From an uncultured bacterium (GTDB taxonomy: Bacteria; Myxococcota_A; Polyangia; Polyangiales; Houyiibacteriaceae): DNA of 32,581 bases. Every line of letters begins with the position of its first letter. Positions within the stretch are counted from its first letter, which is position 1. Location: positions 1 to 32,581 of the forward strand of contig CALLDH010000275.1 of the NCBI GenBank assembly GCA_937998345.1. The letters run 5' to 3'. Of the stretch, positions 20,286 to 21,609 are shown piece after piece. Under the pieces are notes generated by a model. That model was not told the origin of the DNA. It worked only from the letters and a program-made list of their open reading frames with translations, and did not search any database. The translations under genes and the position numbers were made by a program.

Positions 20286-21344
20286 ATGGGTCTTTGGTAC
20301 GAAGAAATTTTTGATGAGCACACGCGGCTTGGGCTTCTCGTCAAGGAGACCCTATTTTCGGTGCAGAGCCCGTTCCAAAAAATCGAGATCATCGACACGT
20401 CTGGATTCGGGAGGGTTCTGGTCATCGACAACGTCTTCATGACCAGCGAGTACGACGAGTTCCTCTATCACGAGATGCTCGCACACCCGGCGCTGACGAC
20501 CGCGCCGCGCATCAATCGCGTCCTCGTCGTTGGCGGAGGCGACGGCGGCACCGTCCGGGAAGTGCTCCGACATCCCGACGTGAGGGAATGCGTGATGATC
20601 GAGATCGACGAGATGGTCGTCGATGCGTCCAGGCAGTACCTACCCGGCATCGGAACGGCCTGGGACGATCCACGCCTCGAGGTCCGCTTCATCGACGGCA
20701 TCGAGTACGTGAAGAATAGCGCCGACGAAAAGTATGACGTCATCTTGCTGGACGGAACCGATCCTATCGGCCCAGGTGCGGTGCTGTTCGACGAAAGCTT
20801 CTATCGAGGCTGCAAGCGCATGCTCTCCCCCGACGGCGTCATGGCGTTGCAGAGCGAGTCGCCGCTTCTGATGTTGGACATCTTCGTCGAGATTCAACAC
20901 AAGCTCCGCAACCTGTTCTCCGAAGTCCACCCATACCTAGGCCCAGTCCCCCTCTACGGCACCGGAACCTGGAGCTGGACCTGGTGCTCCAACACCGGCG
21001 AACCCCTCCGACCATTCCCGGAACGCCAGGAAGCCATCGTCGAGGGCTCGAAGGCCTACAACGAAGACCTCCACCAGGCGGTCTTCGCCCTACCCACCTA
21101 CGTCAAACGCGCGCTCAAGCTCTACGCGACTGCATCACCGGAGAACGGCGCGCGACGCACGTGCTCACGAGCGGGACCCGCTCGGCCCTCTCTTTACGTC
21201 GAAATACGGCTAGCCTCCCCCCGCTCGCTGTGCCGCACATCGCGAGCCGTTCTCCTGTGTAGAAGTCGACGTACGGAGGGGGTCGCGTGTGACGCACGGA
21301 GCATTAACCCTTTCAAAAAGGGGACTGTCCCCTTTTTCGTGTGA
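20286..21344 (+). CDS. speE: spermidine synthase with repeat-derived C-terminal extension
   Basis: MGLWYEEIFDEHTRLGLLVKETLFSVQSPFQKIEI, VVGGGDGGTVREVLRH, DGTDPIGP, AFALPTYV; residues from ~285 on are encoded by palindromic DNA. Confidence 0.93.
   Translation: MGLWYEEIFDEHTRLGLLVKETLFSVQSPFQKIEIIDTSGFGRVLVIDNVFMTSEYDEFLYHEMLAHPALTTAPRINRVLVVGGGDGGTVREVLRHPDVRECVMIEIDEMVVDASRQYLPGIGTAWDDPRLEVRFIDGIEYVKNSADEKYDVILLDGTDPIGPGAVLFDESFYRGCKRMLSPDGVMALQSESPLLMLDIFVEIQHKLRNLFSEVHPYLGPVPLYGTGTWSWTWCSNTGEPLRPFPERQEAIVEGSKAYNEDLHQAVFALPTYVKRALKLYATASPENGARRTCSRAGPARPSLYVEIRLASPRSLCRTSRAVLLCRSRRTEGVACDARSINPFKKGTVPFFV
21140..21255. repeat. palindromic element A: 16-bp inverted repeat (15/16) enclosing a perfect 17-bp palindrome
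   Basis: GGAGAACGGCGCGCGA (21140-21155) vs TCGCGAGCCGTTCTCC (21240-21255); inner CGAGCGGG-A-CCCGCTCG (21168-21184). Confidence 0.85.
21315..21337. repeat. 23-bp perfect palindrome, copy 1 of a short dispersed element; possible bidirectional terminator
   Basis: AAAAAGGGGAC-T-GTCCCCTTTTT. Confidence 0.9.
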
Positions 21345-21357
21345 GGAGTCGTCCATA

Positions 21358-21543
21358 GGGGCTCGGAAAAACGCGACATGGGGTGGAGTCGGCGTGTGAG
21401 TGACAATCGGCACGACAGCAATCAGCCCCGATTGGCGCGAGCTCCGAGGGGCGCCTTGCGTGGCCTCAGGCCCCAAGCCCCTCCGGCCACATCTGCAAGG
21501 CGCCCCGTCCGGCGCAACCCCGTGTCGTGTTTTTCCGAGCCCC
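21358..21543. repeat. 186-bp nested palindromic element C (27-bp outer stem plus two internal hairpins)
   Basis: Outer arms GGGGCTCGGAAAAACGCGACATGGGGT (21358-21384) and ACCCCGTGTCGTGTTTTTCCGAGCCCC (21517-21543), 25/27; inner CAATCGG/CCGATTG (21404-21410/21428-21434), GGGGCGCCTTGC/GCAAGGCGCCCC (21448-21459/21495-21506), GTGGCC/GGCCAC (21460-21465/21485-21490). Confidence 0.88.
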
Positions 21544-21581
21544 GGTGAACCTGTGAGCACGCCCGACCCGTCCGCAGGGTT

Positions 21582-21609
21582 CCCGTGTCGCGTCCCGCCG
21601 TGCCCCGGT
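21582..21609 (+). repeat. degenerate direct repeat of the right arm of element C
   Basis: CCCGTGTCGCGTCCCGCCGTGCCCCGGT vs CCCGTGTCGTGTTTTTCCGAGCCCCGGT (21519-21546), 22/28 identical. Confidence 0.65.

Follow-up and report, generated by a model that had tools for sequence, protein, structure and literature searches.

Our data suggest that the palindrome at 21357-21544 of the window (the whole stretch of 32,581 nucleotides analysed here) is one copy of a non-coding repeat of ~190 nt that is dispersed in intergenic gaps, mainly between convergent genes, whose + strand forms a three-way junction that probably acts as RNA, and which would spread non-autonomously, a reading that we consider likely as a whole if far from secure. 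Comparison of aligned copies indicates that the structure is conserved far beyond the sequence, across several bacterial families. The repeat has apparently not been described so far; literature searches on palindromic repeats or MITEs of myxobacteria gave no result.

The first-pass annotation had described a nested palindrome at 21358-21543 with a 27-bp outer stem around two hairpins, and this geometry was confirmed. The stretch 21358-21384 (GGGGCTCGGAAAAACGCGACATGGGGT) pairs with 21517-21543 (ACCCCGTGTCGTGTTTTTCCGAGCCCC) at 27 positions, the two deviations (G21373/T21528 and T21379/G21522) are both G-U in a + strand transcript, and the inner 7-bp hairpin (21404-21434) and the 18-bp hairpin with a 4-nt bulge (21448-21506) are present. 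A slight correction concerns the ends, since what is conserved among the copies runs from 21357 to 21544 (AGGGGC...GCCCCG, ~188 nt); the covariance model R1 scores 210.9 bits on the + strand at exactly these coordinates, and the same ends recur in more than 60 fetched copies. Within this unit, all on the + strand, the long closing stem P1 consists of a 5' arm (21359-21384) and a 3' arm (21517-21542) joined by 25 model pairs, 15 of them double-changed within the genus and 23-24 across the order. The outer stem extends inward at the junction as P2, where 21389-21392 pairs with 21509-21512 (three of four pairs double-changed). The first inner hairpin, P3 (21393-21446), carries a GUGnCAA...UUGGCGC core with five double-changed pairs and with the letters GUG, CAA and UUGG invariant across the order, and P4 (21448-21506; CUUGCGUGGC...GCCAC-nnnn-GCAAG) has 8 of 15 pairs double-changed in the genus and keeps its bulge. 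The minimum free energy of 21340-21560 is -127.1 kcal/mol for the + strand and -126.3 kcal/mol for the - strand (z -7.1 and -7.7, respectively), far beyond the shuffles, none of 200 shuffled sequences folding equally well. Six-frame ORFs across the palindrome revealed no credible gene, in line with the earlier statement that no CDS explains it. Nor was any named family found where none had been recognised before: Rfam returned no match above the gathering threshold and no credible one at permissive E-values, weak matches to plant miRNA precursors being long-hairpin artefacts.

In its own genome, most copies of this core lie within a larger composite of a repeat 'A', a short AAAAAGGGGACTGTCCCCTTTTT palindrome and the core, to which several add an inverted terminal repeat. 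In the window, the companion palindromic repeat A (21138-21262, - strand) stands head-to-head with the core, the short palindrome (dozens of dispersed copies in the genome) occupies 21315-21337 (+ strand), and the terminal repeat of the composite occupies 21129-21173 (+ strand). This terminal repeat is found inverted at the far end in other copies; the right-hand one is absent from the window copy, which has in its place an additional 3' half belonging to a second subfamily (21564-21609, + strand). This truncated tandem copy is 72% identical to 21501-21546 and 100% identical to the corresponding half of subfamily b, and it stops 3 bp before the convergent gene's stop codon. Repeat A may itself represent another family of structured repeats, to judge from an alignment of 46 distinct copies in which 11 of 24 pairs of the consensus fold are double-changed and the wobbles on its - strand are G-U in 90 cases vs A-C in 14. 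The short palindrome (AAAAAGGGGACTGTCCCCTTTTT; AAAAAGGGGACTGTCCCC) flanks a Y1 transposase gene on both sides at locus L195, in a relative, and is similar to the GGGGWSAS-type terminal inverted repeats (TIRs) described for tyrosine transposases (PMC3733652). A third dispersed repeat (GGCAGCGCGAGCCCGAAGGGCGAAGCCCGGCGC...) often lies 5' of the core in genomes G002, G005 and G006 and elsewhere (loci L218, L240, L246 and L262; gene-end intergenic regions). Genus-wide, the conserved stretch contracts to ~21357-21544, the palindrome itself, and the core is therefore the independent unit.

BLAST searches gave dispersed matches in the host MAG (3.47 Mb) and in congeneric genomes. The query 21340-21560 matched 24 places in its own genome, many of them at the ends of contigs, as a repeat should, and all 18 other genus genomes were hit by the 486-bp composite, which beyond the genus matched only 1, weakly, of 39 other genomes of the family and order. 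R1, built from 53 copies, yielded ~460 matches in 18 of the 19 genus genomes (17 of 18 congeners and the host), with 1 to 65 per carrier genome. Used together with the order-wide model R2, it recovered full-length but very divergent copies in other genera of the order (g4, g5 and g7 of family f1; g26 and g37 of f9; g21 of f10), which brings the carriers to seven genera in three families of one order. No copies were found outside the order among 379 Myxococcota genomes under strict filters with six candidates per genome scored. Genomes with an exact core match were uncultured Polyangiaceae/Myxococcales MAGs, and phage or plasmid cargo was rejected, with no match in viral contigs (exact pattern), plasmids or phages. 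Two near-complete genomes of the genus, G016 and G018, each hold a single divergent copy with a different P1 (L285 and L286), possibly a low-copy ancestral state.

The strong covariation expected of a structured RNA is seen in an alignment that was not fitted to structure. In the MAFFT alignment of 53 copies (A2), the RNAalifold structure has 57 pairs, 31 of them double-changed, and 98.2% of pair cells are paired vs 88.4% in shuffles (0 of 500 shuffles reached this), a share that drops to about 38-45% when partner columns are slid by one to three. In the order-wide alignments A4 and A5, 40 and 41 of 57 pairs are double-changed, respectively (98.7% of pair cells are paired in an alignment of 42 sequences with 40 such pairs), the order-wide ones being fitted to the model and hence biased towards the modelled structure. 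P1 has been rewritten between genera with its pairing kept (AGGGGCTCGGAAAAACGCGACATGGGG in the window and AGGTGCTTCGGGGGCGGTTACGTGGGTGCGCGG in G047, both matched by a complementary arm) and is near-perfect in most copies. The inner core letters are conserved across the order (GGGC..CGUGnCAA..UUGG..CGAG..CUUGCG..UGCAAG..CG..CC). In P3 a U-G pair is fixed in 52 of 53 sequences and an A/G mismatch is kept, as is the 4-nt bulge of P4. Such paired mutations are as expected of a working RNA, or of a folded single-stranded DNA. The repeat is thus multi-copy and conserved, with abundant compensatory changes, whereas a single-copy, unconserved sequence without such changes had been named in advance as the case against a functional or mobile element.

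The two strands are not equivalent. Wobble cells read on the + strand are G·U in 225 cases vs A·C in 9, the strand-specific tolerance of wobbles that a structured RNA should display, and because they are almost never A·C the + strand is the selected fold. R1 scores 211 bits on the + strand vs 42 on the -, and this asymmetry of wobbles and model scores together points to selection acting on the folded + strand and speaks against simple correction of a palindrome. The wobble asymmetry suggests that the + strand fold acts as RNA; G-T pairs in folded single-stranded DNA would be expected to leave a similar pattern.

In the window the repeat lies between convergent genes for a spermidine synthase and a zinc-type alcohol dehydrogenase. 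Of the 59 copies whose flanks were usable, 30 have convergent neighbours, 15 tandem and 3 divergent ones, and 11 lack a clear left gene (gene calls for these counts being ORF/GC3-based). The copy's 3' end and the opposing stop codon are 2-11 bp apart in ~22 copies, and 14-100 bp apart in most copies of other genera, a similar placement pattern. Since either orientation between convergent genes points the 3' end at the opposing gene, this proximity counts as placement only and was dropped as an orientation rule. Copies that lie close together face each other head-to-head: G047 and G058 hold five such pairs, spaced by 166-247 nt, and the A/core pairs of the window and of G016 are arranged likewise. 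The spermidine synthase ORF (20286-21344, Pfam PF01564) extends about 70 codons into repeat A. Its homologues in G015, G017 and G008 end where the window reads CTCTACGCG, so that the stop codon was apparently lost to the repeat and the protein lengthened, unless the extension is an assembly error.

Copies have sharp ends and unrelated 3' flanks. Amplification is genome-specific, as judged by the relationships among copies: the nearest relative of a copy lay within its own genome for 47 of 70 copies vs 4.4 expected with shuffled labels. Occupancy varies between orthologous gene ends. The end of an aspartyl-tRNA-synthetase-like gene is occupied in G006, G011 and apparently G012 (where the contig ends inside the copy) and vacant in G005 and G013. 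At the end of the window's dehydrogenase gene, only ~10-16 bp separate the two genes in G007 and G010, and G013 carries a core copy at the site corresponding to that in the window. Single copies are dispensable, because the orthologous site L246 (G005:C69:42000-43000) retains only a 23-bp core remnant (AGGGGCGCGGAAAAAGCGCCCCG) from an internal deletion in the palindrome, which shows one route by which copies decay. A clean empty site at base resolution was not found, the sites being occupied, rearranged, too diverged or, in this one case, reduced to an internal-deletion remnant. Among the fetched loci no autonomous partner with the same ends was seen, in assemblies that break at copies and with Y1 as the only transposase family searched.

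The strongest rival to an RNA is a single-stranded DNA mobile element recognised by its fold, like attC or the substrates of IS200/IS605-RAYT, in which the top strand would fold at replication, a recombinase would cut at the base of P1 and structure would be selected for mobility. It would account for arms that vary freely yet stay complementary, for the sharp ends, the one favoured strand, the missing target duplication and the bursts in single genomes. However, the fixed U-G pair in P3 and the general tolerance of G-U are more typical of RNA, neither attC boxes nor GTAG/CGTC tags were seen, and Y1 (PF01797), the sole HUH family tested, does not track copy number. It was found in 13 of 19 genomes and in neither of the high-copy genomes G010 (53 copies) and G002 (36 copies), both 80% complete; G009 has one Y1 match and zero core copies (these MAGs being incomplete), and the core was absent from all 11 Y1 loci tested. 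Mobilisation by a RAYT was rejected, since Y1 presence is unrelated to copy number, and we regard the wider single-stranded DNA explanation as unlikely, if one to be taken seriously. Far less probable is that the covariation is a functionless product of template-switch correction. Long inverted repeats are prone to correction of one arm by the other and P1 is nearly perfect in most copies, but such correction would erase wobbles and bulges, whereas the G-U pairs, the P3 mismatch and the P4 bulge are kept, the wobbles are strand-biased and the core letters are conserved across the order.

An ordinary MITE, with P1 as the TIR pair bound by a DDE transposase made elsewhere, would fit the size, the TIR-like arms, the intergenic dispersal and the composite with a second terminal repeat of ~45 bp in this genus. 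We consider it improbable, as between genera P1 keeps its pairing alone and not its sequence, the internal hairpins also covary, which TIR binding does not require, and target-site duplication is absent (a 4-nt repeat at 6 of 66 copies vs 7.7 in shuffles, and at none of 16 distant copies). The earlier reading of a structured RNA or a non-autonomous palindromic mobile element is therefore borne out with each half holding in part: the repeat is dispersed and amplified by lineage like a mobile one, while a classical MITE with sequence-conserved TIRs and target duplication is not supported, and the + strand appears constrained like an RNA, with many compensatory changes. Least credible of all is a retron-like origin, in which msr-msd copies would have multiplied by retrotransposition; this has been proposed for the msDNA-like repeats of Nannocystis exedens (Lampson & Rice 1997, as cited in PMC6868368). 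The shared phylum, the long inverted repeat around two hairpins, the repeated copies and, so far as that citation conveys it, the precedent itself speak for it. Against it, RVT_1 reverse transcriptase is missing from 17 of the 19 genus genomes, the host included, and complete carriers, high-copy genomes among them, are without it; no core copy adjoins either of the two RVT_1 genes, the one in G013 reads like a group II intron reverse transcriptase, and Rfam gave no retron match. Retrotransposition was rejected on these grounds.

Under our preferred explanation, of a new family of mobile intergenic repeats working as RNA, copies would spread into gaps between genes, chiefly convergent ones, and persist there. 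The + strand would fold as a three-way junction in which a P1 of 25-33 bp and free sequence encloses two hairpins with conserved cores, and the RNA would arise when a co-oriented neighbouring gene is read through its 3' end. Just short of the opposing gene, P1 may then clamp and protect the end of the RNA or mark it as an RNase III substrate, and the copies would be non-autonomous units, mobilised by a machinery that reads the fold and not the end sequence. We would suggest only tentatively that this three-way junction is a mobile structured nucleic acid of a new class, with ends defined by fold and not by sequence, that multiplies in genomes without a reverse transcriptase by way of a fold-recognising machinery and serves as an RNA boundary element between convergent genes. 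The usual dispersed repeats of bacteria are short palindromes or elements with sequence-defined TIRs; here a branched fold of 190 nt is kept in at least seven genera and three families despite a rewritten closing stem, yet is absent from Rfam. The family is a natural case in which to ask whether dispersed palindromes are retained for their RNA or for a fold of single-stranded DNA, and with the covariance model hundreds of intergenic copies that now lack annotation can be annotated.

In integron attC sites one strand folds, and the arms are complementary and free in sequence. The repeat shares the single folded strand and the complementary arms of free sequence, but it is larger and branched, and its ends do not by eye resemble RYYYAAC/GTTRRRY boxes. 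Its covariation is at the level of the curated structured bacterial ncRNA classes of Rfam 15, although none of its families was matched by the window or by nine loci that carry distant homologues. Within the phylum the nearest precedent, as far as the citation of Lampson & Rice 1997 in PMC6868368 describes it, is the msDNA-like repeats of Nannocystis exedens, likewise myxobacterial and repeated; most carriers of the present repeat lack a reverse transcriptase, which disfavours this precedent, and there is no retron match. REP, BIME and REPIN sequences are dispersed intergenic palindromes, mostly 3' of genes and between convergent or tandem ones, often in inverted doublets, for which RNA roles have been proposed; REPs measure 20-40 bp, bear GTAG or CGTC tags and have associated RAYT (TnpA-REP) genes (PMC3733652; PMC3116915). 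The repeat resembles them in its extragenic 3' position with a convergent bias and in its inverted doublets (the five head-to-head pairs), and departs from REPs in its length of ~188-190 nt, its three-way junction, its 5' flanks, which vary between genera (TATGG, CCCAGT, ACATGC, GACGTC) and share no common tag, and the want of a cognate RAYT gene flanked by the repeat. ERIC, NEMIS and RUP are bacterial MITEs of 70-300 bp, non-coding and foldable as RNA, with TIR-like arms (PMC3733652), traits which the core shares, whereas its ends are not conserved in sequence across genera, it has no target duplication and its internal hairpins are structurally conserved. Although it lacks the tags, conserved TIRs, target duplication and tracking transposase of these systems, the core repeat is best read as working like BIME/ERIC-type 3' elements.
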